NCBI GenBank assembly: GCA_947089145.1
Contig: CAMUJH010000008.1
Location: 27,316 to 91,315, forward strand
Length of the DNA stretch: 64,000 nucleotides
Direction: 5' to 3'
Source of the DNA: an uncultured Hungatella sp.
GTDB taxonomy: Bacteria > Bacillota > Clostridia > Lachnospirales > Lachnospiraceae
The position numbers and the translations under genes are program-made. Below, one piece after another: positions 29,836 through 47,054 of this stretch (its first letter is position 1; every line of letters starts with the position of its first letter). The notes under the pieces are model-generated. The model made no database searches. It saw nothing but the letters and a program-made list of their open reading frames with translations, and had not been told where the DNA came from.

Positions 29836-29837
29836 GA

Positions 29838-31221: not shown

Positions 31222-31227
31222 TAATAA

Positions 31228-31373
31228 AGATTCCTGTAACTGAGGCGTGAGTGCGTATCCTTACCCCAAAGCCAAGGAAGATTCAAAAACCAAACCCATG
31301 CACTGACACAAGGAAGAATCCAAGTAGGAAGGCAAAGGAGTAAAATTGCGAATAACCAGGATAAGTCTGTCAG
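31228..31373 (+). ncRNA. Leader RNA upstream of the hydE terminator (attenuator or riboswitch candidate)
   Basis: About 145 bases lie between the predicted transcription start and a perfect intrinsic terminator. CACTGAC (31301-31307) is complementary to GTCAGTG (31369-31375), which overlaps the 5' arm of the terminator. TACCCCAAA (31262-31270) could pair, with one bulge, with TTTGGGTA in its 3' arm (31382-31389). Such mutually exclusive helices are the hallmark of an attenuator. No known riboswitch, T-box or leader peptide was recognised. A stand-alone small RNA of about 170 nt is the alternative reading. Confidence 0.55.
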
Positions 31374-31398
31374 TGTACCCATTTGGGTACATTTTTTT
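31374..31398 (+). terminator. Intrinsic terminator inside the hydE leader
   Basis: TGTACCC (31374-31380), a 4-base loop and GGGTACA (31385-31391) are followed directly by seven T residues. It is 149 bases upstream of the hydE start and on the same strand, so readthrough must be controlled if hydE is expressed from the promoter at 31193. Confidence 0.88.
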
Positions 31399-31546
31399 GC
31401 GTGGAAGAGTGTCTTTGCTTTGAAATGTCTAAAGGCAGATTAAAAAGTCATTTTGGTAAAAGAAACTCCAGAAAGCGGCGCCATAGTATTTCAAACGCGC
31501 TCTAAAAGCTGAACAAGAAGAACCTGGACAAAAAGGAAGTGTGATA

Positions 31547-32575
31547 ATGGCAACAACCGGAGAAAGGGAGCAGTGGAGAGAATGGATTGAGACAAAAAAT
31601 AAGGTTCTTGAGGAGCAGCTGTACGCCCTGGCCAGACAGACAAGAGAAAACTGGTATGGAAAGGATGTATACATCCGCGGGTTGATTGAGTTTACCAACT
31701 ACTGCAAAAATGACTGCTACTATTGCGGAATCCGCAGAAGCAACAACAAGGCTTTGCGGTATCGTCTGACAGAGGAGGAAATCCTTGCCTGCTGTAAAAC
31801 GGGATATGAACTGGGATTTAGGACCTTTGTGCTTCAGGGCGGGGAAGACTTGTTCTTTACGGATCTGCGTCTTGCCCGGATTGTGGCAGCCATAAAGGAA
31901 ACTTACCTGGACTGCGCCGTGACCCTATCCGTAGGGGAGAGAAGCCGGAAATCCTATGAGATGTTCTATGAGGCTGGAGCGGACAGGTATCTTCTCCGCC
32001 ATGAGACGGCCAATGATGCTCACTACGGACAGCTTCACCCAAAAGAGATGTCTCTGGAAAACAGAAAACGGTGCCTGTGGGATCTAAAGGAGATCGGCTT
32101 TCAGGTGGGAGCCGGCATGATGGTGGGAAGTCCGGGACAGACGGTGGAGTGCATACTGGAAGATCTGGAGTTTCTCAAGGAACTGCAGCCGGACATGGTG
32201 GGAATCGGCCCATTTATCCCCCATTGCGAAACACCGTTTTACGGCCAAAAGGCAGGAACAGTGGATCAGACTTTACGCCTTTTAGCTGTTGTCCGGCTGA
32301 TTCTTCCCCAGGTCCTTCTTCCTGCCACCACGGCGCTGGGAACCATTGAACAGGACGGGCGTGAAAGGGGGATGCTGGCAGGGGCCAATGTGGTTATGCC
32401 TAATCTTTCCCCGTCAAATGTGAGAGACAAGTATCAGCTTTACGACGGAAAATTATGCACTGGATCAGAAGCGGCAGAAAATCTTGACAATTTGAAACGC
32501 TCCATGGAGGCCATAGGCTACAGAGTAGTGTCCGGCAGAGGGGATCGGGCCGGATATGTTAGGAAAGCGATTTAG
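31547..32575 (+). CDS. hydE: [FeFe]-hydrogenase maturase HydE (radical SAM)
   Basis: This 342-residue radical SAM enzyme helps build the di-iron subcluster of [FeFe]-hydrogenase. The CX3CX2C cluster motif is CKNDCYYC near residue 60, followed by RYRLTEEEIL, the GGE-type SAM motif in LQGGEDLFF and a C-terminal SPSNVRDKYQLYDGK that is typical of HydE. The related BioB/PylB/ThiH enzymes share the fold, but pairing with hydF supports HydE. ATG 31547 follows AAGGAAG; a GTG two codons upstream is less well placed. hydG is not in this window. The gene is preceded by a leader with an internal terminator. Confidence 0.92.
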   Translation: MATTGEREQWREWIETKNKVLEEQLYALARQTRENWYGKDVYIRGLIEFTNYCKNDCYYCGIRRSNNKALRYRLTEEEILACCKTGYELGFRTFVLQGGEDLFFTDLRLARIVAAIKETYLDCAVTLSVGERSRKSYEMFYEAGADRYLLRHETANDAHYGQLHPKEMSLENRKRCLWDLKEIGFQVGAGMMVGSPGQTVECILEDLEFLKELQPDMVGIGPFIPHCETPFYGQKAGTVDQTLRLLAVVRLILPQVLLPATTALGTIEQDGRERGMLAGANVVMPNLSPSNVRDKYQLYDGKLCTGSEAAENLDNLKRSMEAIGYRVVSGRGDRAGYVRKAI

Positions 32576-32604
32576 GATTTGAATCCGGCAATGGATGCCT
32601 ATAA

Positions 32605-32623
32605 AGAGACTCTGAGAGTACAT
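32605..32623 (+). repeat. Single arm of the inverted-repeat element
   Basis: AGAGACTCTGAGAGTACAT matches the right end of the elements at 20883-21045 and 26951-27006 with one or two differences. No left arm is visible, because hydE coding sequence precedes it. Confidence 0.55.
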
Positions 32624-32648
32624 TACACAAAAAGAGAGGGACAAGAAA

Positions 32649-33896
32649 ATGGGAAGAAATGAGACGCCTGCTTCAGAGAGAATCCACATCGGGTTTTTCG
32701 GAAGGAGAAATGCGGGAAAGTCCAGTGTGATGAATGCGGTTACCGGACAGAACCTGGCTGTAGTTTCTGAGGTAAAGGGAACCACTACAGATCCGGTTTA
32801 TAAGTCTATGGAACTGCTTCCCCTGGGACCGGTGGTCATGATTGACACCCCTGGAATCGACGATGAAGGGGGACTGGGAGAGCTTCGGGTAAAGAAAAGC
32901 CGCCAGGTGCTGAACAAAACCGATCTGGCAGTTCTGGTGGTGGACGGCCAGGAAGGAATGAGAGAAGAGGACTACCAGATAGCAGATCTGTTTCGGAAAA
33001 AACAGGTGCCTTATGTGGTGGTGTTTAATAAAGCGGATTTGGGCAGGGAAGACTTGGTATGGGAAAAACGCCGGTCAGATGAAAGCGCCCATCCATCCGA
33101 AAACTGCCTCTGGGTCAGCGCTGTCGACAAATCAGGAATCGAAGAATTGAAGAACCTTTTAGGTTCTATGATCCCCTCAAGGAAGGAGCGGGATCTGCTG
33201 GAAGGTCTGGTAAATCCCGGCAGCCTGGTAATCCTTGTAACTCCCATCGACAAGGCCGCACCAAAAGGAAGGCTGATCCTGCCCCAGCAGCAGACCATAC
33301 GGGCGCTGCTGGATCACGGGTGCATGACTGTGACTGTCCGTGAGACAGAACTGGAAATGGCTTTTAAAAGTCTTGGGAGAAAACCGGATCTGGTGATTAC
33401 GGACAGCCAGGCATTTGGAAAGGTATCGGCCATGGTGCCAAGGGAAATCCGCCTTACCTCATTTTCTATTCTGTTTGCCAGATACAAAGGGAACCTGCGG
33501 CAGGCTGTAGAAGGCGTCTGCGGGCTGGACGAGATCCGGGATAACGATACCATTCTCATCAGCGAGGGGTGTACCCACCACCGCCAATGCGGCGATATCG
33601 GCACCACAAAACTTCCGGCGTGGATTGGGCAGTATACAGGAAAGGAACCCCGGTTCGTTTTTACCTCAGGAACCGAGTTTCCCGAAGACCTTTCCCCGTA
33701 CCGCTTGATCGTCCACTGCGGCGGGTGCATGCTTAATGAGCGGGAAATGGAGTATCGTCAGGCTTGTGCCAGGGAGCAGAACATCCCCATGACAAACTAC
33801 GGAATCCTCATTGCCCATGTTCATGGAATCCTGCAGCGAAGTCTGGAACCGTTTCCCGATATCTGTGCTTTGCTGCAAAAAAGGGGCAGAGCATGA
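32649..33896 (+). CDS. hydF: [FeFe]-hydrogenase maturation GTPase HydF
   Basis: This is a 415-residue scaffold GTPase that carries the hydrogenase di-iron precursor. The G1 loop FGRRNAGKSSVMNAV lies near residue 17, the switch motif VMIDTPGIDDEGG near 65, and NKAD near 120. The C-terminal iron-sulfur ligands are in EGCTHHRQCGD near residue 305 and VHCGGCMLNEREMEYR near 358, as in HydF. It starts 73 bases after hydE, with GAGGGAC upstream, and its stop overlaps the start of the next permease gene (ATGA), so the ABC transporter is translationally coupled to it. That coupling is unusual and discussed in the findings. Confidence 0.94.
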   Translation: MGRNETPASERIHIGFFGRRNAGKSSVMNAVTGQNLAVVSEVKGTTTDPVYKSMELLPLGPVVMIDTPGIDDEGGLGELRVKKSRQVLNKTDLAVLVVDGQEGMREEDYQIADLFRKKQVPYVVVFNKADLGREDLVWEKRRSDESAHPSENCLWVSAVDKSGIEELKNLLGSMIPSRKERDLLEGLVNPGSLVILVTPIDKAAPKGRLILPQQQTIRALLDHGCMTVTVRETELEMAFKSLGRKPDLVITDSQAFGKVSAMVPREIRLTSFSILFARYKGNLRQAVEGVCGLDEIRDNDTILISEGCTHHRQCGDIGTTKLPAWIGQYTGKEPRFVFTSGTEFPEDLSPYRLIVHCGGCMLNEREMEYRQACAREQNIPMTNYGILIAHVHGILQRSLEPFPDICALLQKRGRA

Positions 33897-34675
33897 ATCG
33901 GTGGGGGAAACAGGCCCTTGGCATTATTCTTCTGGCAGTTATCTGGCAGGGTGCATCCTGGTCTGGCATATGGAGTTCATACATTCTCCCCTCGCCAGGC
34001 AAAGTGGCCAAAGCTTTGTGGACAATGATGGAAAGCGGAGTGCTGTGGCAGCACATATTTGTCAGCCTGAAACGGGTTTTCCAGGGATTTTCCATTGCTT
34101 TTCTGCTGGCATTTGCTGGAGGAGCGGCAGCTTATGAGCTGCCTGGAATAGAAGAGTATTACAAGGGATTTCTGGAGTTTATGAGAAACGTCCCGCCAAT
34201 CAGTTTAATCGCTCTGCTGATTTTGTGGTTTGGCATTGGAGAGACTTCTAAAATTATCATCATTGTGCTGGCATCCTTTTTTCCCATGTATCTCAATATC
34301 CGAAAAGGCTTTGTTTCCATAGACAAAAAGCTTTTGGAGGTAGGGCAGGCCTTTGGGTTTGGAAGATGGAGACAATTTATCAGGATTGTCCTTCCTGGGG
34401 CGGTTCCGGATATTCTCGTCGGCATGAAAGTGGGACTTGGATACAGTTGGCGGGCCATTATCGGCGCAGAAATGATTGCGGCATCCAAAGGAATCGGATA
34501 TCTGATTCTGGATGCCCAGCAGATGTCAAGATCCGATAAAGTGGTGGCAGGGATTCTCACCATAGGGGCTGTGGGGATTGCCTGTGACAAAGTATTTCAG
34601 GTGATGATTGGCCGGATGGCTGTAAGGGGAAGTGCAGAAGGAGCGTCAGGGCATGAGAATCAGGGATTTGTGTAA
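33893..34675 (+). CDS. NitT/TauT (SsuC-like) family ABC transporter permease
   Basis: This 260-residue permease of the binding-protein-dependent transport group 1 has about six hydrophobic segments and the cytoplasmic EAA-type loop LLEVGQAFGFGRWRQFIRIV near residue 148, followed by LPGAVPDILVGMKVGLGYSW. The ATG at 33893 overlaps the hydF stop by four bases, and the gene overlaps the ATPase gene by 23 bases. The family includes importers for sulfonates, nitrate, taurine and thiamine precursors. The binding protein downstream does not show which compound is carried; linkage to hydrogenase maturation genes hints at a cofactor- or sulfur-related compound, but this is inference. Confidence 0.9.
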   Translation: MNRWGKQALGIILLAVIWQGASWSGIWSSYILPSPGKVAKALWTMMESGVLWQHIFVSLKRVFQGFSIAFLLAFAGGAAAYELPGIEEYYKGFLEFMRNVPPISLIALLILWFGIGETSKIIIIVLASFFPMYLNIRKGFVSIDKKLLEVGQAFGFGRWRQFIRIVLPGAVPDILVGMKVGLGYSWRAIIGAEMIAASKGIGYLILDAQQMSRSDKVVAGILTIGAVGIACDKVFQVMIGRMAVRGSAEGASGHENQGFV

Positions 34676-35396
34676 GGAATATCAGGTTGCGGCAAAGCGC
34701 ATTGAAGTGTTGAAAGGCCTGAACCTGGATGTAGATAACCATGGGATCACAGTGGTGCTTGGACGCAGCGGATGCGGAAAAACCACCCTTCTCCGTCTGG
34801 CAGCAGGGCTGGAACAGGCAGACAGGGGGAGTGTGGAAATGGGATCAGATGCAAAGATGGGAGTGATTTTCCAGGAACCTCGCCTTATGCCTTGGCTTAC
34901 GGTAGGAGACAATATTCTTTTCGGAACCGGAAAGAGACAGGGGAGAGGCAGGCACAGAGTTCTGAACAGACATCTCGATTATCTGCTGGATCTGACCGGC
35001 CTGAAGGGATTTGAAGATGCGTATCCGTCCCAGCTTTCCGGCGGAATGCAGCAGAGGGCAGCTCTTGCCAGGGCGCTGGCTTATAAGCCGGATTACCTTT
35101 TGATGGATGAGCCTTTTGCGGCTCTGGACTACTTTACCAGGAGTCAGATGCAGAAAGAACTTTTAAAGATTCATCAGGCGGAACAAAAGGGGATTCTGTT
35201 TGTGACCCACAGCATTGATGAGGCGCTGACCATTGGAAAAAAGGTGGTTATATTGGAAGACGGGGGATGCAGGAAAGAGTACGATTTGGGAGATATTCCT
35301 TATCCCAGGGATTTGCTTTCAGAGAAAATTGGGAAGATTAAGAAGGGGATCGTTGAGGAGATGGAAAAGACCGGTGAAATTGGAATGTTACCATGA
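34653..35396 (+). CDS. NitT/TauT (SsuB-like) family ABC transporter ATPase
   Basis: This is a 247-residue ATP-binding subunit. It has Walker A GRSGCGKTTLLRL near residue 37, Q-loop VIFQEPRLMPW, signature LSGGMQQRAALARAL near 127, Walker B LLMDEPFAALD near 150 and the H-loop FVTHSIDEAL. The start MRIRDLCKEY at 34653 overlaps the permease gene and has AAGGAG upstream. It would power the permease at 33893 together with the lipoprotein at 35466. The motif set is that of SsuB/TauB/NrtD proteins, a group that cannot be split by substrate from sequence alone. Confidence 0.92.
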   Translation: MRIRDLCKEYQVAAKRIEVLKGLNLDVDNHGITVVLGRSGCGKTTLLRLAAGLEQADRGSVEMGSDAKMGVIFQEPRLMPWLTVGDNILFGTGKRQGRGRHRVLNRHLDYLLDLTGLKGFEDAYPSQLSGGMQQRAALARALAYKPDYLLMDEPFAALDYFTRSQMQKELLKIHQAEQKGILFVTHSIDEALTIGKKVVILEDGGCRKEYDLGDIPYPRDLLSEKIGKIKKGIVEEMEKTGEIGMLP

Positions 35397-35465
35397 GGCG
35401 GCGTTTTTGAAAGACAGGCTGACATAATCAAACAATGATTTTTGAAAATGGAGGAGTAAAAGAAG

Positions 35466-36557
35466 ATGAAATTCAGAGAAAAGGTTTTGAAAAAAGCAAT
35501 TGCATGGATGCTGGCTGGCGCATTGAGCGCCGGGATGCTGGCAGGATGCGGAGACGGACAGCAGAAAGATCAGGTCAGTGGGGCAGCCAGGCAGGAGGAA
35601 AGCAGCAGTGAGCAGGGGACAGAGACAGAAGCACAGACCCAGTCTGATTCTCAGATCGAAACCGGATCTCAGGAAGATGCAAAAACTGAACCTAAAGGAA
35701 CGATTATGGTGACATATGTGAAGTCTCCTCTTAATGTGCCTTCAATTGTGGAAAAGGATCAGGAGATCTTTACGGAGGCTTTTGGGAAACTGGGGTATGA
35801 GGTGGGATATTCAGATTTAACTACAGGGCCGGAACAGACCCAGGCTTTGGCTTCAGGGGATATTCAGTTTTTGAATGCAGTGGGAGCCACATCCGTAATT
35901 TTGGCGGCGTCCAATGGGCTGGATATAAAAATTATAAGCACATACAGCCGTTCCCCAAAAGCCTTTAAGCTTTTCAGCAAGGACGGGGCCATTCAGTCGC
36001 CGGAGGATTTGCGGGGCAAGAAAGTGGCAGGCCCCAAGGGAACCATTCTCCATGAACTGCTCACAGCATATCTGGCCAGTGCAGGAATGACGGAACAGGA
36101 TATTGAATTTTTGTCCATGGGCATTCCGGACTCCCAGGCAGCTCTCATGGGCGGCAGCGTGGATGCAGCCCTTTTGGCAGGGCCTGCGGCCTATAACACG
36201 GAAAAGGACGGCTTCAATGTGGTGACGGACGGCGAGGGGCTGACAGAGGCTACTATCGTGGTAGCTGTTGGGGGCCAGTATGCGAAAGAGCATCAGGAAG
36301 AGATAAAGACATTCCTGGAGGCCCAGAAACAGGTGCTGGATTATATAGATGCTGAGGAAGAGAAGGCCATGGAAGCCGCAGCCAAAGAGACAGAGCTGAC
36401 AGTGGAAGCCGTGAAAGAGATGTATCCTTTATATGACTTTAATATGACCATAAAGGATTCGGATATTGAGGCTATGAAGAAAACAGAACAGTTTATGAAA
36501 GAGAATCAGATGATAGAGACGGATGTGGATATTGAGGAACTGATTTTTGCGCCTTAA
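35466..36557 (+). CDS. NitT/TauT-type substrate-binding lipoprotein
   Basis: This 363-residue exported lipoprotein has the signal region KKAIAWMLAGALSAGMLAGC with its lipobox cysteine near residue 27. A low-complexity Gln/Glu/Ser/Thr-rich linker of about 50 residues follows. The binding domain starts at MVTYVKSPLNVPSIVEKDQE. Segments such as SGDIQFLNAVGATSVILAA and LRGKKVAGPKGTILHELLTAYL are those of the SsuA/TauA/NMT1-like binding proteins. It is the last gene of the hydE-hydF-ABC run and is followed by a strong terminator. Ligand unknown; aliphatic sulfonate, thiamine precursor or another small anion are candidates from the family. Confidence 0.88.
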   Translation: MKFREKVLKKAIAWMLAGALSAGMLAGCGDGQQKDQVSGAARQEESSSEQGTETEAQTQSDSQIETGSQEDAKTEPKGTIMVTYVKSPLNVPSIVEKDQEIFTEAFGKLGYEVGYSDLTTGPEQTQALASGDIQFLNAVGATSVILAASNGLDIKIISTYSRSPKAFKLFSKDGAIQSPEDLRGKKVAGPKGTILHELLTAYLASAGMTEQDIEFLSMGIPDSQAALMGGSVDAALLAGPAAYNTEKDGFNVVTDGEGLTEATIVVAVGGQYAKEHQEEIKTFLEAQKQVLDYIDAEEEKAMEAAAKETELTVEAVKEMYPLYDFNMTIKDSDIEAMKKTEQFMKENQMIETDVDIEELIFAP

Positions 36558-36584
36558 GGACTGGAAAGAGGGACTGCTAAAAGC

Positions 36585-36640
36585 CTGGCAGAGGGCGGCA
36601 TGGTGGCCGTCCTCTGCCAGATGCCTTCTTTTGCGTTTTC
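36585..36640 (+). terminator. Terminator of the hydE-hydF-ABC operon
   Basis: CTGGCAGAGG (36585-36594) and CCTCTGCCAG (36611-36620) pair perfectly, and the enclosed GGCGGC/GGCCGT sequence extends the stem. It is followed by a T-rich stretch (TTCTTTTGCGTTTT). Confidence 0.78.
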
Positions 36641-36683: not shown

Positions 36684-38297
36684 CTACACTTCCCCACCCA
36701 GCATCATCCCCAGCCGCTTCACGCAGACCCAGTAATTCCTCTCCCTGGTGCCCTTTGCACGCCTAATCTGCCCTTCCGCATAATCCGGCCCTCGTTTCCA
36801 GTCTGCCCGGACAATTCCAAGTTTTAAACAATATTCGGCCTCCCTAAGTTTATCTTCGCCTGCTCCGGCATCTGCCAGATTTTCAAGCACCTTTGTGGCT
36901 GCCTCATCGTAAACAGGGTTAAAAAATCTTCTCCAGCCCGAATCGTATCCCAGTTCGATTACCGTATTCTCCTTGCCGTCCGGCAGGAAGCACACATCCT
37001 CGGATGTCTCTTCAATATGGAGATAGTACAGAGACGCCCTATCTTTTCCTTTACTGATACGCAGAATCCTTCCCAGCCTTTGAATGCGCTGCCGTCTGGC
37101 GGCAGTACCTGACAGGATGATCCCAATGGATGCATCCGGCACGTCCACGCCTTCATCCATGGCTCTGCAGGCAATGAGGATTCGTATTTGTCCGGTTTGA
37201 AACCGTTCCAGTGTATTTCTGTTGGCCTGATCTCCCATTTCAGAATGATACCGTCCCACTCTTCCCGGATACCGTTCCTGCAAAAGCCTGTACAGCTTCT
37301 CCGCCTGGCGGATTCGCTCTCCGAAAATGAGGATTTTTTCATGTTCATCGAGCCTCTGTACCAAATCCCAGGCACAGGAAATCCTGTCAGACGCCAGGCA
37401 CACAAGGCTCTTTCTTTTATAAGACAGCTTCATATATGCTGACGCTGCTTCCGCAATCTTTATATCTTTACTGCTGCAGAGATTCCGAAGCAGGTCAAAT
37501 TGTTCTTTTATATCCATTTTTCTCAGCAGCGGATGGGCATTTACCAAAGTGCTGTACAGCAGAGTCATTTTATCTGTAAGCTCCTCATATTCCAGCCGTT
37601 CTTCCCCTTGAAAGGAAAGCCGTATATGGAAAACGTCATAGCGGCACACAGTTCCCAGCTTGGACGCCTCCGCCATTCCATAGCTGTATATCCTGCGTCC
37701 CAAAGCAGATGTCAGAAACTGCCGTGATTGTCCTGACGGCAGGGTAGCGGAAAGCCCTAAGGTGAAATAATTCGCCCGGTAAGGCTCTATAAATGGCAGG
37801 AACTCAAAAATAAGGCTGTTCTCACTGCTGTCATAGTGATGGCATTCATCTGCAATAAGGAAAACGGCTTCTCCCTGTTTCAGCTCTGTAAGTATCTGCC
37901 TGGCCAGTTCATAACGGGCGGAATTGATTACATAGATCATATACTGGCACTCCGCCGGGTCTTTATATCCGCCGCCTCGCAGTCCGATTCTGCATCTTTG
38001 GCTGCTGATTCCGGCGTCCTCCTTCAAAAGACTGCCGGTTCGGCAGATTTCCGATCCTTCCTGAGATTTGGTTAAAAATTCTTTTATAGAACGGCTCCAC
38101 TGCAGCATCAGTGCGCTTGTTGGAACCACAATTTTGACCTTCAGATCAGGGTTTACATTTTTTAGCAGCCTGTCCGCCGCCGCCAGGGCCAGTAGCGTTT
38201 TTCCCGATCCGGTGACCGCCTGTACCATCCCGCGGCAGCCATTAGACTGCCACAGATCCAGACATTCCTTCTGCCATTTATACAGTTTTTTCTCCAT
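36684..38297 (-). CDS. SF2 DEAD/DEAH-type helicase of a putative defence module
   Basis: This is a 537-residue superfamily 2 helicase with a compact XPB/Res-like layout. Motif I is AVTGSGKTLLAL near residue 30, motif II IADECHHYDS near 148, motif III GLSATLP near 180, and the C-terminal RecA domain has ACRAMDEGVDVPDA and motif VI QRIQRLGRILR near 415. No nuclease or methylase domain is visible. It is divergent from a three-gene operon encoding an unrecognised protein and two BrxC/BrxD-like ATPases, about 240 bases away. This combination recalls the ATPase-plus-helicase part of the Shango and BREX defence systems. A role in recognising or translocating on foreign DNA is plausible but inferred. 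Confidence 0.85.
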   Translation of the reverse strand: MEKKLYKWQKECLDLWQSNGCRGMVQAVTGSGKTLLALAAADRLLKNVNPDLKVKIVVPTSALMLQWSRSIKEFLTKSQEGSEICRTGSLLKEDAGISSQRCRIGLRGGGYKDPAECQYMIYVINSARYELARQILTELKQGEAVFLIADECHHYDSSENSLIFEFLPFIEPYRANYFTLGLSATLPSGQSRQFLTSALGRRIYSYGMAEASKLGTVCRYDVFHIRLSFQGEERLEYEELTDKMTLLYSTLVNAHPLLRKMDIKEQFDLLRNLCSSKDIKIAEAASAYMKLSYKRKSLVCLASDRISCAWDLVQRLDEHEKILIFGERIRQAEKLYRLLQERYPGRVGRYHSEMGDQANRNTLERFQTGQIRILIACRAMDEGVDVPDASIGIILSGTAARRQRIQRLGRILRISKGKDRASLYYLHIEETSEDVCFLPDGKENTVIELGYDSGWRRFFNPVYDEAATKVLENLADAGAGEDKLREAEYCLKLGIVRADWKRGPDYAEGQIRRAKGTRERNYWVCVKRLGMMLGGEV

Positions 38298-38413
38298 TTT
38301 GCCACCTGTCTGCGTCTCCGAAAAGTATCATGCCTTAATTTTACCATATCCGTGGCATTTCTGAAAGTATCTAATACCTATAGAAAGAAAGTTCGCCATT
38401 CTTAAAGAAATTG

Positions 38414-38442
38414 TTGAAAACTCATCACGTATCGTTTATACT
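38414..38442 (+). promoter_or_regulatory. Promoter of the ATPase operon
   Basis: TTGAAA (38414-38419), a 17-base spacer and TATACT (38437-38442), about 100 bases before the start of the first gene. No clear promoter for the divergent helicase was picked out in the same gap. Confidence 0.7.
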
Positions 38443-38541
38443 TTTTATAGTTTTGCTTATAACCGCAACCTTACGCTTCGAACCTGCTTACTGATATTTT
38501 GTAACCACAATAAAAATATTATTGCAAAGGAAAACCCACTT

Positions 38542-39318
38542 ATGAACTATGAGAATCTCTATGAAACTTTACAGCCCCGGCATAAATCTTTAAAAGAAAG
38601 TCTTGCCTTGTTACAGAAGCTTTCAAAAACTGCTGCAAAGGAAACTGACAGCGGAGATATCAGGAACCTTTTAAAAGACTTGGATTCTATGGCTGAAACC
38701 ACAGCCGTTCTCTCCTCTGTTTTAGAATCCATGAGAGATGCTGTCAGCGGATTTGACACAAAAGCATATTTTGAAAGCGGAGAATTTGCCCGGCAGATGC
38801 TGGATGCCTGTCAGGAAAAAGGCGTTGACGTCCGTGGATCTTCACCTGTTTTTGAGATGTTCCCTTATCGTATAAAGCTGGATATGGAAAATCAAGACGT
38901 TTATCTTGACAGGAAAAAGATCCAGTGCATGCGGCCCAGAAGCTTCGTAGATACGGTCCGCAGCAGCCAGGAAAAACTGAATAAGGCGGCCTTCAATCCC
39001 GGTGCTTTTGCCAGCGAACTGGCGGATGCTTATGACACTGCCATCCTAAAGATGAAGCGGCAGTCTGGTGCGGATATTTATTTAAACAGCCTTTACAAAT
39101 ATCTGGCTCCCATGAGCCGTTTCAGGAAGGACTATGATCAGCAGAGCTTTGCCTTTGACCTGGCCAGACTATATATTTCCGGGATTGAGGAGACAAAAAA
39201 CGGAAGAAAGTTCCAGTTTGGCCCCAGCAGGGAGAGTAATAAATCCATTCGGATACTGGACGGAAACGGCAAAGAATATTTTCTGTCCACCATTTGCTTC
39301 TATAATCAAGAGGCATAA
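38542..39318 (+). CDS. Unrecognised 258-residue protein, first gene of the ATPase operon
   Basis: I do not recognise this protein. The first 80 residues are charged and probably helical or coiled-coil (LKESLALLQKLSKTAAKETD, then LESMRDAVSGFD). A middle segment, VFEMFPYRIKLDMENQDVYL near residue 113, looks like a beta-rich domain, and the C-terminus holds RKFQFGPSRESNKSIRIL. No signal peptide, membrane segment, TerB motif or nuclease motif is visible. It is encoded directly ahead of two P-loop ATPases and opposite a helicase, the position taken by the adaptor or TerB protein in Shango-like loci. It may be a specificity or docking subunit. AAAGGAAA lies upstream of the start. Confidence 0.75.
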   Translation: MNYENLYETLQPRHKSLKESLALLQKLSKTAAKETDSGDIRNLLKDLDSMAETTAVLSSVLESMRDAVSGFDTKAYFESGEFARQMLDACQEKGVDVRGSSPVFEMFPYRIKLDMENQDVYLDRKKIQCMRPRSFVDTVRSSQEKLNKAAFNPGAFASELADAYDTAILKMKRQSGADIYLNSLYKYLAPMSRFRKDYDQQSFAFDLARLYISGIEETKNGRKFQFGPSRESNKSIRILDGNGKEYFLSTICFYNQEA

Positions 39319-39421
39319 GCACGGACATGTCCTTCGTAGCCTGCCTGCGTCTGAAATAAAACTGCAGAGAGTGAAGGCATCCTCCAAACGTGTTTATACC
39401 TGGAAAGGAATGGTGAATTGC

Positions 39422-40627
39422 ATGATGTCGGAATTTGGCGAAAATATGGATCAGGAAGGCGTAGTCTCCGATTGTTTGGAGACTACGCTTTCCTGCGGGA
39501 TAGAATTTCTTACGGATTTCTGGGAGGAAAAATATCTTCGGGAATACATCAAAAACGGCGGCAGCAAGATTAAGTTTATAACCGGACGGATTGGAAGCGG
39601 GAAGACCCATTTTCTGCATCTGATGACTTCCATTGCCGCAAAGGAAAATTATAAAACCGTGTGGTTTTCCGCAAAAAATGTGTGGATGCATGATTTTAAA
39701 GAGGTGTATGTGGAAATCTTTCATCAATCCGGTCTTTTAGACTGCCTGGAAATCCTTAGCCGGCAGGTGATAAAGGATATGGGGTTTGATCATGGCGATA
39801 TCCCGGAGGGGATGAAATTTTTTGATTACCTTTCCCAAAACGGCATGGGGGATGCCATAAACAAGAGGGAGATCCGTTTGCTTTTGAAACAGATGTTTCT
39901 GGATAATCCTATGCTTGACAATAACTTTGCTTTGGCCTGCTCCATGCTTACAGGAAGTATTCTGGGGTATCCTATTTTGGAGGATTCCAGCAGGGACATG
40001 CTTCTTGCATGGCTGGAGGGAGATCGGACAGTAAAGCTTTCTCAGCTGCGGTCCCTCGGTTTTTATCCCAGCCGCATTACTAAGTTTAATGCCCGCAATA
40101 TGCTGCGTTCTCTGGCGGAGGTGGTTCGGTTAAGCGGATTTTCCGGGCTTTTTATTGCCATTGATGATTTGGAAATCCTTATCAGCCGGTCCAGCCTGGA
40201 ACCGATCCATTACACGAAGATGAAGCGGGAGGATACCTATGAGAGCATTCGCCAGCTGATTGACGATATTGACTCCATGAAAAACATTATGTTTATCTAT
40301 GCATTTGACCGGGAACTGATGGATCATGAAAATGCAGGGCTGAAGGCTTATCAGGCTCTTTGGATGCGGATACAAAACGAGATCGTGGGCGAGCGGTTTA
40401 ACCGGTTCGCTGACATGGTGGATTTGGATCTGCTGGCAGCCCAGGAATATACGCCGGATGTAATTATTGCCATGTCAGAAAGTATTGCCCATGTTAAGAA
40501 ACATGTATCGGCGGCTCCTCTGGATATGGACGCTGCAAAGGAGATTGCGGCTCAGGCGCGGACGGGGGCTGTAGGTATCCCCAGGCTGATTCAGATTGCC
40601 ATGGAGGAGGTGCATGGAGATGTATGA
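39422..40627 (+). CDS. P-loop ATPase, BrxC/BrxD-like (DUF2791-like), first copy
   Basis: This is a P-loop ATPase of about 401 residues. Walker A is FITGRIGSGKTHFLHLM near residue 50 and Walker B is GLFIAIDDLEIL near residue 245. A probable sensor stretch is NIMFIYAFDREL, and an arginine-rich segment follows. The AAA+-like layout with a helical C-terminus is that of the BREX ATP-binding family (BrxC/BrxD, DUF2791). The open frame reaches back into the preceding gene; ATG 39422 is chosen because AAAGGA lies 12 bases upstream and the earlier stretch overlaps the 258-residue protein. It overlaps the next ATPase gene by eight bases, suggesting an equimolar hetero-oligomer. Confidence 0.8.
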   Translation: MMSEFGENMDQEGVVSDCLETTLSCGIEFLTDFWEEKYLREYIKNGGSKIKFITGRIGSGKTHFLHLMTSIAAKENYKTVWFSAKNVWMHDFKEVYVEIFHQSGLLDCLEILSRQVIKDMGFDHGDIPEGMKFFDYLSQNGMGDAINKREIRLLLKQMFLDNPMLDNNFALACSMLTGSILGYPILEDSSRDMLLAWLEGDRTVKLSQLRSLGFYPSRITKFNARNMLRSLAEVVRLSGFSGLFIAIDDLEILISRSSLEPIHYTKMKREDTYESIRQLIDDIDSMKNIMFIYAFDRELMDHENAGLKAYQALWMRIQNEIVGERFNRFADMVDLDLLAAQEYTPDVIIAMSESIAHVKKHVSAAPLDMDAAKEIAAQARTGAVGIPRLIQIAMEEVHGDV

Positions 40628-41810
40628 TATGGAAGCCAGACACGTCATTGAGGCACTGCGTTCCGGCGTTCCTTCCAGGGCGGTAGGACAATATTTTTCC
40701 GAAGCGCGGCCTAAAATTATGAAGGATATTTCCGGGCGGCTGGACATGGTGCGGGAAAAGGGAAAATCTAACGGAATGATCATCAGCGGAAAGTACGGTG
40801 AGGGAAAAACACATCTTCTGAATACGATCTTTAATCTGGCCCATTCCAGCAATATGGTGGTTTCTTATCTGTGCTTAAGCAAAGAGACGCCAATGGACAA
40901 GCTGCATTTGGTGTATCAGAAGGCTTTGCAGAACCTGTACCTGCCGGGACGTCAGCAGCCGGGATTTATGCATGAGCTGGATAAGATTTCTCCCAACAGC
41001 CCTTTAGCCGGAGAAATGCTCCCTTTTGCAGCTAAATATCTGGAGACGGATAAACTGTACTATCTGTTTCGCTCTTATTTGAATACGGAGGATTCGGATG
41101 AGAAATTTCTTCTCCTTGCGGATTTGGAGGGAGATTTTGTTGCCAACGGATCGCTGAAGAAAATCTACAAGAGGATTTTCGGGCAGGTTGTAAAATATAA
41201 TGAAAATTTTACCAAGACGCGGCACTGCGGAGATTATTTTTCTTTTATGAGCCATCTGTTTACTCAGATGGGATACGACGGATGGGTCATCCTTATTGAC
41301 GAAACCGAGCTTATGGGGCGCCTGAGCAAAAAGGCCCGAATTAACGCATATCGGAATATGGCCAGGTTCCTTCTTCCTGAGTTGTGCCCGGAATCTACGT
41401 TTACCTTGTTTGCCCTTACTTCTTCTTACGTGGAAGATGTGATCGAGGGAAAACATGATTATGAGAATCTGGAGAATATTTACCCTATCAGTCAGGAGCC
41501 GGCGCGGACGGTTCTGGATATGCTGGTTAAGGCTCCTCAGCTTATGCCGTTAACAAAAGATGAGATTCACAATGCTCTTTGCAAGATACAGGATTTTCAC
41601 GGACAGGCCTATGGGTGGACTCCCAATGTATCTGCAGAATCCCTGGCGGAGGCTACCAGATCCGGCGGGTATCTCCTGCGGACGAAGATCCGGGCAGCCA
41701 TTGAATTTCTGGATCAGCTTTATCAATATGGGAAAGCGGGCAGGACTACCATCAATGAACTGGGGCAGGAGACGTTTGAGGAGGATGTGCCTTCCATTGA
41801 GGAGTTTTGA
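40620..41810 (+). CDS. P-loop ATPase, BrxC/BrxD-like (DUF2791-like), second copy
   Basis: This ATPase of about 396 residues starts with ARHVIEALRSGVPSRAVGQY, a region I associate with DUF2791/BREX ATP-binding proteins. Walker A is IISGKYGEGKTHLLNTIF near residue 52, Walker B GWVILIDETELMG near residue 222 and a sensor-like TLFALTSSYVEDV near 265. ATG 40620 was chosen for spacing of nine bases after GGAGGAGG; ATG 40614 and TTG 40596 are alternatives. It is related to, but clearly diverged from, the preceding ATPase. No PglX methylase, PglZ phosphatase or BrxL protease is nearby, so it is not a full BREX system. The operon ends at a hairpin shared with the restriction genes. Confidence 0.83.
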   Translation: MYDMEARHVIEALRSGVPSRAVGQYFSEARPKIMKDISGRLDMVREKGKSNGMIISGKYGEGKTHLLNTIFNLAHSSNMVVSYLCLSKETPMDKLHLVYQKALQNLYLPGRQQPGFMHELDKISPNSPLAGEMLPFAAKYLETDKLYYLFRSYLNTEDSDEKFLLLADLEGDFVANGSLKKIYKRIFGQVVKYNENFTKTRHCGDYFSFMSHLFTQMGYDGWVILIDETELMGRLSKKARINAYRNMARFLLPELCPESTFTLFALTSSYVEDVIEGKHDYENLENIYPISQEPARTVLDMLVKAPQLMPLTKDEIHNALCKIQDFHGQAYGWTPNVSAESLAEATRSGGYLLRTKIRAAIEFLDQLYQYGKAGRTTINELGQETFEEDVPSIEEF

Positions 41811-41817: not shown

Positions 41818-41860
41818 AGGCTGCCGTGCTGAAACGGGCGGGTTTTTAGTACGGCAGCCT
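41818..41860. terminator. Hairpin between convergent ATPase and res genes
   Basis: AGGCTGCCGT (41818-41827) and ACGGCAGCCT (41851-41860) form a perfect 10-bp stem. T-tracts are weak on both strands, so termination strength is uncertain. Confidence 0.55.
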
Positions 41861-41914
41861 CAAAAAAGCTTTCCATGTGAGTAAGAAATGTTCAGCATTA
41901 TCTAATCAGCTTAT

Positions 41915-44110
41915 TTAAAACACATCTGATAATAGTTTCCAGTTGTCACTCTTAATATCATCAGAATAAGTTTTTGTGCAAATGCAAAGTTCACTGCTTT
42001 GCTTATCCTGTCGAACAATACCTCCCAACAAATGATATTTGTCTATGTATTTCTTTAATACTTCAAATTTTTTGGCAGTGTATTTGTCAATATCCTCGCT
42101 ATTACCTGTTTTTGTAAATCCGCCTTTTGTTTCGATTATCCATATACTCCCATCATCCGCTCCAACGATATAATCGGGATAAAATGATTTTTGTTTTCCA
42201 AAATTATCTACATATACAATAGAAAGATACTCAATACCTTTATCCCCATTTTTGTAAAACCATTGAATATGTGAACTGCTCTCACAATAGCGTTCAAAAA
42301 GCTTTTCCGGCGTTGAACGCTTTTCGGCAGAGGAAAGGTAGCCCTTATATACATTTTTGGTCAGTTCCGCCTGCGATTTTGCAGTTCCATCATAAGTAAA
42401 AATCATTTCGAACGGAAAACCAATAGGCTTTTCTGATATTTTCGGTATTGCCATGGAAAGCTGCAGAGTTTCATCTGCCATAGCCTGGCGGACATCCTCA
42501 ACTAACAGATATTTATTGTTAATGACAAAAGCATATAATTCCCTTGTTTCAATTTTGAGAATCTTAGATTCACACCTTAATCCATGAAGAAACAGCTTAC
42601 GTATAATGGTGTTCATACTATTGTAATCCAGGTTAACCTTATACCCAATCTCGGCGACACAATGGTGATACTCTTTACCATGCTTATGTGTATTAAGAGG
42701 TTCATGTATGGATATATTGTTAAGTTCAGCTATGGTTTCTTTTGACAAAGTACTTACGGCACCTGATTTTGTAAAATCGACAATATCTTTTGAAAAAGAG
42801 TATCCATGTGATGTTAATGTTGCCTTATTCTTGGAGGTGTCCCTTTCAATGTGGTATTTCTTTTCGAAATGCTTGTAAATTACTTTCAACGATAATTTTC
42901 CATCACGTGGGTAGGGAACATCGGTTTTATATTCACTGATAAGTATAATGGAACGGTACTCAGGTTTTAGAAACACTTTGTAGGCGTCAAGGGCACCTTT
43001 ACCTAAACTTAACTTTACGCTTTCAGTAAATTTTTCATCCAATGTATACAGATAGCAGCTATCAAGCAAATCGCTTTCATAATGCCTTGCTTCGGGCATA
43101 CGGCGAATTCGACCGATTGTCTGAATTTCAAATACTTCACTCATATTATCTCGAAGCTTAACAAGGATTTGTGCTCTTGGACAGTCCCAACCGGTGGCAA
43201 CTGCCTGTTTTATAATTACAGCAATAGGCCTTGCATTTGAATCTTCGATATCTTCAAGATTCTGCTTTTTATTAGAAAGCCACACAGCGAGAGTATTATT
43301 TTCATAGGTAATTCCCTTGTTTTCAAAATATTTTTCTGTTCGTTCAAGCAAAGCGTCCGATTTATTCGGAATTTGTACTATAATAAGAGGATTGATTTGT
43401 GCCTTCCGATTCAGATACTCTGCTCGCAGTTCTCTTTGCTTTGCAATCGCTTTATCAAGCAGATATGTAATTTGATCGTCAATACTAATATGCTGTTCAA
43501 AATTTTCGTTGATAATAAGCAGTTTTTTGATTAATCCTTCTGCTATAACATCTTCTTCAGGAATATCAATTAAAGTGGCGTTTTTATAATTTTTAGGCGT
43601 GGCAGAACAACGAATTATCTTGTCAGAATGAAAAAGTTCAATGATGTCATCAGCTTTAATGGTGTCGTTTTGGTGAGATTCATCAACAATAATTTTAAAT
43701 TTTAAACCGTTATCAAGTGCATTGCGTATATGTTCTATAAAATTAGTTCGTTCACTTTCTTTAAGCGCATTATTACCTTTCTTCGTGAGTTTTTCCCAGT
43801 TAAAAAAACAGGCATCATTTTCTTCAAAACCAAAAGTCATAATATCAGAAAGTAATTTTGTTTTACTTCCATAAATATACCTATCCATTTTTTCCTTACT
43901 TTGTTCTTCCAGATTACCTTTGCCGGGAGTAAGCCATACAAACACAGATTTGTAATTACTTTTGAAATACTCATCCATAAAGTGTGTAAGAATAATTGTT
44001 TTCCCACTCCCTGTACAACTTTTTAGGATAATATCTCTATTTGGCTTTTCCATTGCAGTAATCAAATCAGCAATTGCTTTTAACTGAAAATTTGCAAGAG
44101 CAATATCCAT
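41915..44110 (-). CDS. res: Type III restriction enzyme, Res subunit
   Basis: This 731-residue restriction subunit joins an SF2 helicase and an endonuclease. Motif I is CTGSGKTIILTHF near residue 30, motif II IIVDESHQND near 143, motif III IRCSATPKN near 170 and motif VI TIGRIRRMPE near 333. The C-terminal PD-(D/E)XK nuclease shows FYPDYIVGADDGSIWIIETK near 650. Typical type III Res subunits are nearer 900-1000 residues, so this is a short form, but all motifs are intact. It lies two bases after mod on the same strand. Base composition is much more AT-rich than its neighbours, which together with mod suggests horizontal acquisition. Confidence 0.92.
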   Translation of the reverse strand: MDIALANFQLKAIADLITAMEKPNRDIILKSCTGSGKTIILTHFMDEYFKSNYKSVFVWLTPGKGNLEEQSKEKMDRYIYGSKTKLLSDIMTFGFEENDACFFNWEKLTKKGNNALKESERTNFIEHIRNALDNGLKFKIIVDESHQNDTIKADDIIELFHSDKIIRCSATPKNYKNATLIDIPEEDVIAEGLIKKLLIINENFEQHISIDDQITYLLDKAIAKQRELRAEYLNRKAQINPLIIVQIPNKSDALLERTEKYFENKGITYENNTLAVWLSNKKQNLEDIEDSNARPIAVIIKQAVATGWDCPRAQILVKLRDNMSEVFEIQTIGRIRRMPEARHYESDLLDSCYLYTLDEKFTESVKLSLGKGALDAYKVFLKPEYRSIILISEYKTDVPYPRDGKLSLKVIYKHFEKKYHIERDTSKNKATLTSHGYSFSKDIVDFTKSGAVSTLSKETIAELNNISIHEPLNTHKHGKEYHHCVAEIGYKVNLDYNSMNTIIRKLFLHGLRCESKILKIETRELYAFVINNKYLLVEDVRQAMADETLQLSMAIPKISEKPIGFPFEMIFTYDGTAKSQAELTKNVYKGYLSSAEKRSTPEKLFERYCESSSHIQWFYKNGDKGIEYLSIVYVDNFGKQKSFYPDYIVGADDGSIWIIETKGGFTKTGNSEDIDKYTAKKFEVLKKYIDKYHLLGGIVRQDKQSSELCICTKTYSDDIKSDNWKLLSDVF

Positions 44111-44112
44111 TG

Positions 44113-45915
44113 TTACCCCTCCAATTCCTTATAATAATAATCTGGAATAATGTTTATTCTTATATTTCTGTCTTTTAACGTCTGTGCCTGCTGTGAATCC
44201 ATTAAAATATCATGTCCTAGATATAGTTTACTGCATTTGCTGTTTTCATCAATATGTGCAATAAATTCATCAAGTTCTTCTTCGGAAAGAACAATAGCGA
44301 TTTCAGAATTTTCCATAAAATTAATGCCATTTTCCAGTTCCACTAGTTCACGAATATGCTTTAATAGTTCGTCAGCATATTCATAATACAGACGATCTGA
44401 GACGGGCACATAATTCACTTTGTAATATTTAAGAGTTGCAGCATAGTGTTTTTTCTCAATGACCCGCCTAAGGCGTTCATAGGTAACATCTTTGCAGATG
44501 TTGTTTTCATTATTAGTACAAAGGATAAATTTACGTTTACTATCCTTATTTATGGCATTATAATCCATAACAGCATGTCCCGTTGAGCCGGAACCTGCAA
44601 AAAAGTCTAGGACAATACTCTCATTGCTTGACGCAATTTGAAGGATACGCTCAAGTAACCTTATGGGTTTAGGTGTATCAAATGGGATGATTCCATCAAA
44701 TATAGATTTTAATTCTTTTTTTGCTTCATCTGTATGACCTACTTCATCATACATCCAATAATTAGTGGCAATTCGTCCGCCTACGGAATCAGCATATACT
44801 TTACGACGGATTCCACCCTTTCCCCCGCTTGTAAAATAAAACCGAGGCCAAGGCCCTTTGTCAAAAACTTTCTTGGCTAAGGGATATGATTCCTCAAACG
44901 GTTTTTCCAAAACAATAGCTTTTACATGTTTCCTCACTTCTGAAACAGAAACTCCGCAGATCTCTGCTCTTTTTTCGTCGTCATGCAGGTCTTCAAGCTT
45001 GTATTTACACCATCCATTCATATATTCCAACATCTGTTCTTGACTATATCGCCAATGTGCAGTGTTATTAGGATAAAGCATTTCACCTGTTAACGGATGT
45101 TGTATAGCATATACCATTCCTTGATGTGTTTTGGCATCTGAAGCAATCGGGGAACCGCTCATCCAAGCACATCTGTCACCATCAGGGTTTTTATAGGAAG
45201 CGTCCATTTTTGCTGTTCTTGGCAATTTGTTCGGTTCCCAATATTCTTGCTTGCTATAGACTAAAATATGTTCTACTTCTAAAGGAATACCTTTAGAATC
45301 ATTACGAATTGAATAAGTGCGCTGCCAGGAAATATTTGCAATAAAACAATTCTCACCAAATATTGAATCGCATAGGAACCTTAAGCCTGCTTCCTCTTTA
45401 TCATCAATAGATATAAAGATCGCACCATTTTTTGATAGCAGATTTTTAGAAATAAGTAAGCGCTTAGACATAAATGAAAGCCATTTGGAATGGGAAAACA
45501 AATCTGTTTTATCCACGAAGACATCGTCATAGATAAAATCTTTGTTTCCTGTGTTATATGGCGGATCTATATAAATAAGGTCGATTTTTCCCTTGTGTGT
45601 TTTTTCGAGCAGCTTCAAAGAGGCAAGATTGTCTCCTTCAACAAGAAAATTCATTTGTCCGCCATTTGAGATAAAAAGCTCTTTTTCTTCTGTTAAAACG
45701 GGAATTTGGGTATCAAGTACTTCATCAATTCCTTCTCTGTGCTCTTCAAACACAAGTCCGTATTTTTTTCCGTACACATCTTTTTCCAGTTCGGCAAGAT
45801 ATGTAAGCAGATTGCCAGTATTTTCGTCTTGCGGAGCAGACGCAATAAAGATTCGAATTTCGCTGATTTTTGCAAGCAGGTCATCTCGCTTTTGTTTTGA
45901 GATATTTGTACTCAT
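44113..45915 (-). CDS. mod: Type III DNA methyltransferase, Mod subunit
   Basis: This is a 600-residue N6-adenine methyltransferase and specificity subunit. The catalytic motif IDPPYNTGNKDF is at residues 116-127 and the SAM-binding motif LDFFAGSGSTGHAVMD near residue 445, the order of beta-group enzymes as in type III Mod. The stretch between them, about residues 190-400, holds the target-recognition domain and sets the methylated site, which cannot be read from sequence. It forms an operon with res, two bases downstream. Its start lies in an AT-rich region with an extended -10 TGC-TATAAT on the minus strand at 46025-46030, a probable promoter without a good -35 box. Confidence 0.93.
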   Translation of the reverse strand: MSTNISKQKRDDLLAKISEIRIFIASAPQDENTGNLLTYLAELEKDVYGKKYGLVFEEHREGIDEVLDTQIPVLTEEKELFISNGGQMNFLVEGDNLASLKLLEKTHKGKIDLIYIDPPYNTGNKDFIYDDVFVDKTDLFSHSKWLSFMSKRLLISKNLLSKNGAIFISIDDKEEAGLRFLCDSIFGENCFIANISWQRTYSIRNDSKGIPLEVEHILVYSKQEYWEPNKLPRTAKMDASYKNPDGDRCAWMSGSPIASDAKTHQGMVYAIQHPLTGEMLYPNNTAHWRYSQEQMLEYMNGWCKYKLEDLHDDEKRAEICGVSVSEVRKHVKAIVLEKPFEESYPLAKKVFDKGPWPRFYFTSGGKGGIRRKVYADSVGGRIATNYWMYDEVGHTDEAKKELKSIFDGIIPFDTPKPIRLLERILQIASSNESIVLDFFAGSGSTGHAVMDYNAINKDSKRKFILCTNNENNICKDVTYERLRRVIEKKHYAATLKYYKVNYVPVSDRLYYEYADELLKHIRELVELENGINFMENSEIAIVLSEEELDEFIAHIDENSKCSKLYLGHDILMDSQQAQTLKDRNIRINIIPDYYYKELEG

Positions 45916-46188
45916 TTCTCATTTTGCCTTTCTTTTGCTTTTTACTATGTAGGAGCAGATGTGTTTTTATCAGCCATTTAAGCAAGATTTCTGTACAAAT
46001 TATGTAAAAACTGTATGTCGTATTATTATAGCATATAAATCAGCAAACCGCCACAATGAGCAGCACGCAATTAATTTTATCAAGATACAAGGCTTTGGGG
46101 CGCCCTTGACATGCGAAGTCCTTCATCAAGCTGCACAGCCAGATCCAGCAGGCATATATATAAGTAAGCTCTTTACGGAATTTGTGGA
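45916..46188. other. Spacer upstream of mod, no gene supported
   Basis: These 273 bases hold the probable mod leader and a minus-strand extended -10 box at 46025-46030. A short plus-strand frame ending at 46192 has no good start or recognisable product and may be a remnant. Composition changes from AT-rich to average near 46090, which could mark the right edge of the acquired restriction cassette. Confidence 0.4.
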
Positions 46189-46217
46189 TTGACAGATACC
46201 TCCAGAACTCTTAGAAT
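46189..46217 (+). promoter_or_regulatory. Promoter of the hydrolase-MurF-like-ddl operon
   Basis: TTGACA (46189-46194), a 17-base spacer and TAGAAT (46212-46217), 52 bases before the start of the hydrolase gene. Confidence 0.75.
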
Positions 46218-46269
46218 AGGAATAACTGTGAAAATATAGCAGACAACCAAAAAAAGAAAGGTTTAAGAC

Positions 46270-47046
46270 ATGGAGATTGTCATAGATGGATACAAAATTT
46301 CCTACAAAGAATCCGGGGACGGGGAAGACACAGCCGTAATCCTGCAGGGCTGGGGCACCAGCATGGCAGTCTACGATTCGGTTGCGTCCTGCCTCACCTC
46401 CAAATACAGAGTCATACAGTTGGATTTCCCTGGCTTTGGAGACAGCGATGAACCCCGCGAACCATGGTCAGTGGAGGACTATGCCAGGTTTTTCCTGAAA
46501 TTTATAGAAATGCTTAACATCAAAAAAGCCGCCCTCATAGGCCACTCTTACGGCGGCAGAGTCATTATCCGACTGGCCTCCAGGCCGTCCCTGCCCTTTG
46601 AGATTTTGAAGATTGTACTCATTGACAGCGCCGGAATCCTGCCCCAGAAGACGTTCAGGCAGAAACTAAGAATAAAAACTTACAAGATAATAAAAAAAAT
46701 CGTCAGCCTGAAGCCGGTCTATGCCATATGCCCCGAATTTATCGACGACTGGAAAAGCCGTCAAGGCTCTGCGGACTATCGCAATGCGTCGCCTATGATG
46801 CGGCAGTGCATGGTAAAGGCCGTTAATGAAGATCTGACCGGCCTTTTAAAAGATATTAAACAGGATACTTTGCTTATTTGGGGCGAAAACGATACGGCAA
46901 CCCCTTTGTCTGACGGAAAGCTGATGGAGCAGCTTATACCGGAGGCGGGATTGGCTGTGATTAAGGGGGCAGGTCATTTCAGCTTTTTAGATCAGCCGGC
47001 AGTATTTCGCAGGATCATGGAATCATATTTTAATATGGGAGATTAG
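46270..47046 (+). CDS. Alpha/beta-fold hydrolase
   Basis: This is a 258-residue cytoplasmic alpha/beta hydrolase. The nucleophile elbow is ALIGHSYGGRVIIR near residue 92, with serine as nucleophile. The acid lies in LLIWGENDTATPL near residue 202 and the catalytic histidine in GAGHFSFLDQ near 240. An oxyanion HG-type motif is seen in LQGWGTSMAVYD near residue 27. It starts the operon with the MurF-like ligase and Ddl, eight bases before the former. The substrate is unknown; co-transcription with two peptidoglycan-precursor enzymes suggests a role in cell-envelope metabolism or amide/ester cleavage of a precursor. Confidence 0.85.
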   Translation: MEIVIDGYKISYKESGDGEDTAVILQGWGTSMAVYDSVASCLTSKYRVIQLDFPGFGDSDEPREPWSVEDYARFFLKFIEMLNIKKAALIGHSYGGRVIIRLASRPSLPFEILKIVLIDSAGILPQKTFRQKLRIKTYKIIKKIVSLKPVYAICPEFIDDWKSRQGSADYRNASPMMRQCMVKAVNEDLTGLLKDIKQDTLLIWGENDTATPLSDGKLMEQLIPEAGLAVIKGAGHFSFLDQPAVFRRIMESYFNMGD

Positions 47047-47054
47047 TTCAGAAA

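Follow-up and report, generated by a model that had tools for sequence, protein, structure and literature searches.

The window analysed here is a stretch of 64,000 nucleotides from an uncultured Hungatella sp. of the Lachnospiraceae (contig CAMUJH010000008.1, positions 27,316 to 91,315 of the forward strand), and it carries, at 36684-41810, a superfamily 2 (SF2) helicase gene (Hel) together with the genes of a 258-residue protein (P258) and of two ATPases (ATP1 and ATP2). By comparison of related loci, the four make up a mobile, accessory module of gut bacteria, which most likely serves in defence against phages or plasmids. We hold with moderate confidence a fuller reading, namely that the module is a mobile accessory for defence and that P258 would position an AAA+ complex of the ORC/Cdc6 type, which would load or gate the helicase. 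A preliminary description of this DNA had placed the four open reading frames (ORFs), with the ATP2 start and the ATP1 stop having eight bases in common, and both the placement and the overlap were confirmed.

Recurrence and mobility of the four genes

The genome collection was scanned with an alignment of P258, which gave 153 relatives, and the best 80 of these 153 loci (given below as L numbers) were examined; nearly all are from Lachnospiraceae and other Clostridia, and one is from a Sphaerochaetaceae metagenome-assembled genome. In 71 of the 80 loci the helicase, P258, ATP1 and ATP2 could all be placed, so the co-occurrence count that had been proposed as a check on the module came out in its favour. 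Eight of the remaining nine loci are truncated where their contig stops, and in the ninth (L071) ATP2 is split across two frames. One gene is partial in four of the 71, namely the helicase in L050 and L095 and ATP2 in L069, all at contig ends, and the helicase in L093. The helicase is divergent from and upstream of P258-ATP1-ATP2 in 69 of the 71 loci, and co-directional and downstream in the other two (L058 and L087). The distance matrices of the four proteins, compared over 67 loci, gave rank correlations of 0.78-0.90 for the six gene pairs, against a permutation maximum of 0.31; as far as sequences can tell, this co-divergence shows joint inheritance, not contact. The split ATP2 of L071 (10279-11497) and a shortened ATP1 in L075 and L090 may be decay or assembly errors.

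An empty site is present in a genome of the same genus, G806. The window segments 28442-36558 and 41846-50569 lie side by side there in collinear order, with about 91% identity; the segment 36558-41846 is missing, and 209 bp of different sequence stand where the module would be. The indel contains the four genes only, no target duplication was seen at its edges, and no P258 was found elsewhere in the G806 assembly, which is 82% complete. Among the 58 loci with both flanks visible there are 56 different flank pairs. P258 was matched in 10 of 299 genomes of the family sample, including the genome of the window itself and one apparently false match (L010/L019) in a long ORF that, by eye, we take to resemble MutS2, and it is present in 4 of 13 other genomes of the genus. 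The type III restriction system beside the module, which the preliminary description had used as a clue, is real, with both Mod and Res genes; the clue itself had to be dropped, because G806 retains these genes beside the empty site and they occur on 0 of the 80 related stretches, which places them outside the module.

The precise indel, the different site almost every time and the patchy presence argue against a host accessory for DNA repair or replication restart, in which the ATPase pair would load the helicase at stalled forks or damage and defence would play no part. We consider this explanation unlikely, even though the module shows DNA-processing folds only, with no nuclease recognisable among its four genes, Hel scores with the XPB, RecG and UvrB models (each far under its cut-off), and there is no clear defence island near the module in the lineage of the window; the core placed within CRISPR-cas operons, beside BREX-like genes or beside BrxL, as described below, also speaks against it. 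Discrete insertion at variable sites would equally be expected of a cryptic integrative element, of which these would be the replication or maintenance genes, with an AAA+ loader and a helicase that replicate the element. A helicase with a loader does resemble a replication module, and plasmid-borne copies exist. This explanation is nevertheless improbable, since the indel holds four genes only without a target duplication, no relative was found in phages or, by pattern scans, in viral contigs, and it leaves the core in CRISPR-cas operons unexplained.

The P258-ATP1-ATP2 core and its exchangeable partners

Comparison of more distant loci shows P258-ATP1-ATP2 as an older core that is conserved as a unit and combined with exchangeable DNA motors or nuclease-helicases. 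Further sampling with P258 matched 14 of 398 genomes phylum-wide (the window genome included; one was a 45-aa match), and 30 of 113 (a few weak) and 4 of 20 genomes in two classes. This gave 40 further loci (L116-L128 and L165-L191), L129, a 60-aa open frame, having been dropped beforehand. The three genes occur together, in that order, in 37 of the 40; the exceptions are L182, which has a broken P258 only, and L188 and L191, in which the core runs into a contig end. The partner is a divergent SF2 helicase in five loci, a type I CRISPR-cas system in seven, an SF1 helicase in fourteen, an SNF2 helicase in two, BrxL in two, a helix-turn-helix (HTH) protein in three and an unknown protein in one, and in the other six, where the core lies at or near a contig end, no partner is visible. 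Partner domains were checked on representatives, two of the SF1 and two of the HTH cases being scanned. The SF1 partner is a UPF1-like helicase with a C-terminal topoisomerase zinc ribbon, which by clustering extends to the 14 loci of one class (L168-L175, L177-L181 and L183), and the closest PADLOC match of the one SF1 partner tested is Mokosh MkoA (1.3e-44).

The CRISPR-linked loci differ in completeness. L120 has Cas3' (4e-48), Csc1, Csc2, Cas1, Cas4 and Csa1, i.e., type I-D, with an array of 44 repeats, and in L166 the matches to Cas10d and Cas3 are full-length and that to Cas7d is partial. Cas3, Cas8b (7e-180), Cas5 and Cas1 are present in L121, with a DevR match under its cut-off; L122 has Cas3 with an HD domain and a Cas6 match under the cut-off, and L123 has Cas6. 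L167, with an array of 46 repeats, was assigned through seven gene clusters common with L120 or L121, and L182 shares five gene clusters with L120 or L121. The order in L120, L121, L166 and L167, all on a single strand, is effector genes, P258, ATP1, ATP2 and cas1, with small ORFs between.

On plasmid3 of Aulosira laxa NIES-50, genes for a phosphatase, an ATPase and a helicase, which we read as PglZ-BrxD-BrxHI, are followed directly by P258-ATP1-ATP2-helicase, and pDESTI.01 of Desulfomonile tiedjei carries HTH-P258-ATP1-ATP2-helicase near AbiE genes. Further ATP2 matches on plasmids are from Halocatena and archaeon DL31; P0002 itself, used as a query against plasmids, led nowhere. Because distant cores occur in CRISPR systems and beside other defence genes, a reusable part of an anti-phage engine is suggested.

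Some individual loci deserve separate mention. In L124 (genome G470, contig C13), HTH-P258-ATP1-ATP2 lies near, and opposite to, genes for a full-length DUF6079 (BrxC-like) protein and an N6/N4 methyltransferase, and the same genome has a second core within a CRISPR-cas locus (L121). In L127 (3901-10509) the core is followed by an unknown 437-aa gene, an ORF that by eye is Hsp70-like, and two further ORFs in the same direction. A distant P258 with two ATPases and a DEAD helicase lies beside a PLD-SNF2 helicase fusion in L213 (1839-10127).

The ATPase pair

The profile check proposed in the preliminary description identified ATP1 and ATP2 as two different ATPases of the Pfam family BrxC_BrxD (PF10923), with 1.5e-28 and 100.3 bits for ATP1 and 3.4e-27 and 95.8 bits for ATP2 (cut-off 22.2). 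Both are under the 350-bit cut-off of the BrxD equivalog (69.1 and 48.4 bits, respectively). ATP1 of the window has an intact Walker A motif (GRIGSGKT), and ATP2 has Walker A (GKYGEGKT) and Walker B (ILIDETE). The two profiles match each other (hhalign 75%, E 2.4e-5), and against solved structures only weak P-loop matches were obtained, e.g., DnaI, DnaA and FtsE.

A quick maximum-likelihood tree of 79 rows was built; it has long branches, so its deep joins are unsure. The ATP1 rows fall on one side of a branch with support 71, or 86 with one intermediate row, and the ATP2 rows on another side with support 94, likewise with one intermediate row. SngB forms a separate clade (11 rows, support 100) that excludes both, and the single presumed BrxD row joins an unassigned one (99), both lying on the side of SngB (88). 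The subclades of ATP1 parallel those of ATP2 and track the partner type, with the same support in both: 98 for the CRISPR-linked rows with L176 and L190, 100 for the SF1-linked rows and 100 for the rows with the window-type helicase. Comparison shows ATP1 and ATP2 as old, co-inherited paralogues in separate, co-diverging lineages.

Walker A is kept by ATP2 in 43 of 44 rows, the remaining row being a fragment of 106 aa. It is lost from ATP1 in nine of 42 rows (a count that leaves out L116-L119, L181 and L184): in all six CRISPR-linked rows, in both SNF2-linked rows and in L190, where the short contig leaves no partner of the core visible. The CRISPR-linked ATP1 without Walker A beside an ATP2 that retains it suggests, by motif, an active/inactive AAA+ pair. 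This branch, and the separate, co-diverging lineages of the two ATPases, strengthen indirectly the hetero-oligomer proposed in the preliminary description.

Helicase and P258

Hel matches ResIII/DEAD (4.7e-20) and Helicase_C (1.6e-17) of Pfam, and its motif residues are invariant across 30 aligned sequences. In PADLOC it matches the helicase part of PbeA best (1.2e-63, profile positions 252-627), followed by Cas3-type helicases, and it reaches 149 bits with the NCBIfam model of the Dnd-associated restriction helicase, far under the cut-off of 600 bits. The Pfam scan found no PLD domain in Hel.

P258 has a coiled-coil-like N-terminal part and a conserved C-terminal part. No Pfam match was over cut-off (best 0.044), PADLOC and NCBIfam gave zero matches at E up to 1, and PHROG gave a single weak match to a family of unknown function (2.7e-4). 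Matches to solved structures were weak only, the best being a designed coiled coil (5.5e-4).

Comparison with known systems

The preliminary description had called the module related to Shango and BREX and yet distinct from both. The distinctness stood; the relation to Shango held only for the ATPase superfamily and the logic of the genes. Shango consists of the TerB protein SngA, the ATPase SngB and the helicase SngC, and shares with the module the sequence of adaptor, BrxD-family ATPase and helicase, with the helicase as the probable motor. A divergent Shango, with a duplicated ATPase and with P258 as a TerB protein reduced in size, would fit this logic of small protein, BrxD-family ATPase and helicase, and both ATPases do match the SngB profile (1.9e-16 and 1.7e-16). 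We regard it as very improbable. P258 has no detectable kinship with the profile of the gene in the SngA position (hhalign probability 0.8%), SngA having been identified by its position upstream of a strong SngB, with TerB annotated only in the Natrinema and Methylorubrum plasmids. As had been noted earlier, no TerB is visible: P258 has no credible profile match, and PF05099 has no match in the window genome, which is 87% complete (the control search was positive in 4 of 14). The strong-SngB loci of the same phylum (E 1e-156 or better, n = 9) are separate three-gene units, and SngB has its own clade. Unlike Shango, the module also has two ATPases, and its helicase, divergent in most loci, is smaller by some 170-210 aa than the SngC genes seen; among the 25 listed of the 63 PADLOC matches of Hel there was no SngC. 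Shango membership was rejected on three grounds, i.e., no TerB protein, P258 unlike SngA, and ATPases outside the SngB clade.

The BrxD-BrxHI dyad of BREX type 2 likewise has a BrxD-family ATPase in tight linkage with an SF2 helicase, and PMC12839542 proposes that BrxD is an ORC/Cdc6 AAA+ protein possibly loading the BrxHI helicase. Unlike the dyad, the module adds P258 and a second ATPase, and its four genes include no PglZ, PglX, PglW or BrxC. The earlier statement that the module has no PglX, PglZ or BrxL was right, since the indel holds four genes and none is of these families. The one PglZ match of the window genome is on another contig, C22 (L241:485-6648), beside a BREX-1 PglX, and ATP1 and ATP2 are the only BrxC_BrxD family matches in this genome. 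The module is not BREX.

Pbe resembles the module in the helicase part of PbeA, which according to PMC10853773 is an HKD nuclease fused to an SF2 helicase. Hel lacks the N-terminal nuclease part, and none of the four genes is PbeB, PbeC or PbeD. The search for DndE in the window genome gave no signal and was also silent in 14 of 14 controls. PMC10853773 also describes an ORC/CDC6 pair with a KAP NTPase, one of the pair having a disrupted Walker B. Two ORC/Cdc6-type proteins per operon, one of them degenerate, are the common feature; here, in contrast, it is Walker A of ATP1 that is lost, and in some branches only, the partner is a helicase or Cas3, and P258 stands ahead of the two ATPases. The link with type I-D and I-B CRISPR-Cas systems lies in four loci where the core stands, on one strand, between the effector genes and cas1; in the window module cas genes are lacking, and a search of the window for array-like repeats was negative. 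Core genes in CRISPR-Cas loci have no mention in the available part of PMC12669027, and the module is undescribed in the available parts of PMC12839542, PMC10250203, PMC10952713, PMC10910872 and PMC10853773. No published description of P258-ATP1-ATP2 or of its CRISPR-cas placement was found in a search that did not take in most subscription papers or bioRxiv as such. These comparisons suggest a variant of the BrxD-ATPase-plus-helicase kind, of which the CRISPR association is the more surprising part, if real.

Proposed mechanism and points against it

In the defence reading, ATP1 and ATP2 would assemble on DNA into a hetero-complex of the ORC/Cdc6 AAA+ type, ATP2 being the obligatory ATPase and ATP1 a regulatory or structural partner able to lose ATP binding. 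P258 would be an adaptor, serving either to place this assembly on target DNA or to link it with the motor. The assembly may then load or license the helicase on invading DNA, probably of a replicating phage or plasmid, which would be unwound or blocked and left to host nucleases; as the module has no recognisable nuclease, any destruction of DNA would presumably be the work of host enzymes. We suggest, more tentatively, that the core serves prokaryotic immunity in general as a plug-in AAA+ coupling engine, its active/inactive ATPase pair being an ORC-like loader for stand-alone SF1, SF2 or SNF2 helicases, BrxL and Cas3 of types I-D and I-B. Because it lies between effector genes and cas1, the core in CRISPR loci would be a component so far unrecognised there, licensing Cas3 loading or linking interference to spacer acquisition. 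If true, these proposals would define a new, widespread helicase-centred defence module and an AAA+ core common to CRISPR, BREX-like and stand-alone systems. The role of BrxD/SngB-type ATPases beside defence helicases would become directly testable, since pair, adaptor and interchangeable motors can be compared, with natural versions in which one ATPase is dead by motif included.

Several observations weigh against the defence reading. The helicase of L093 is a 46-codon remnant (8431-8568) with the core intact, and in L018, where the core is also intact, no adjacent helicase was seen, so the core may not need a neighbouring helicase in order to persist. The HTH-linked loci (L124, L128 and L189) have no helicase recognised next to the core by profile or by eye. 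The CRISPR-linked rows are all in one clade and hence are not independent events. P258 is rare on plasmids, the two records from Aulosira laxa and Desulfomonile tiedjei being the only ones with a relative; no relative of P258 was found in phages, and pattern scans of viral contigs found no relative. The surroundings in the lineage of the window form no clear defence island, by counts without a matched control. Among 127 immediate flank proteins, 55 PADLOC models were matched at 1e-20; among the 25 of these that were listed, mads_3 was matched by four proteins and each of the remaining 24 by a single protein, and these listed models are largely redundant, of the DpdF, reverse transcriptase, AbiEi, JetD, PsyrT and Cas1 kinds. 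No Pfam family occurs in more than five of the 127 proteins, and the most frequent families include regulators and transporters (first 25 of 134 listed).

Locus layout and sequence elements

The features of the locus are given in Table 1. The mechanical ORF of ATP1 begins at 39134, i.e., within P258, and the real start is likely at 39410-39425, of which 39422 was adopted; with the end of P258 this start leaves a gap of about 100 bp between the two genes.

Table 1. Features of the module and its immediate surroundings in the window
Feature	Position	Strand	Description
Inverted repeat I4, candidate terminator (by eye)	36585..36620		Between ABC-transporter gene and helicase stop
SF2 helicase (Hel)	36684..38297	-	537 aa; ResIII/DEAD + Helicase_C; no nuclease domain detected
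Divergent intergenic region	38298..38541		Between helicase and P258
Sigma-70-like promoter TTGAAA-17-TATACT	38414-38442	+	5' of P258; elements kept in related loci
P258	38542..39318	+	258 aa; first gene of core; family unnamed in libraries searched
ATP1	39422..40627	+	BrxC/BrxD-family ATPase; 401 aa if start = 39422
ATP2	40620..41810	+	BrxC/BrxD-family ATPase, 396 aa
Hairpin, candidate terminator (by eye; absent from terminator scan list)	41818..41860	+	3' of ATP2; inverted repeat I3
Type III restriction-modification Res + Mod	41915..45915	-	Module neighbours, not members

Intergenic regions between helicase and P258 were compared in 75 loci, 56 of them with a region under 320 bp. TTGAAAA occurs in 38 of these 56, against a maximum of 16 for shuffled 7-mers, and AAAGTATA in 28 of the 56, against a maximum of 7 for shuffled 8-mers. 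A structured RNA in this region was considered and rejected, as folding was no better than in shuffles (z 0.93). The hairpin behind ATP2 contains the right edge of the indel (41846), and inverted repeat I4 falls inside the module-specific segment, the left edge of which is at 36558. The window at 31541-36557, 5' of the module, presumably holds, by eye, a radical-SAM ORF, a HydF-like GTPase ORF and then a NitT/sulfonate-type ABC importer set.

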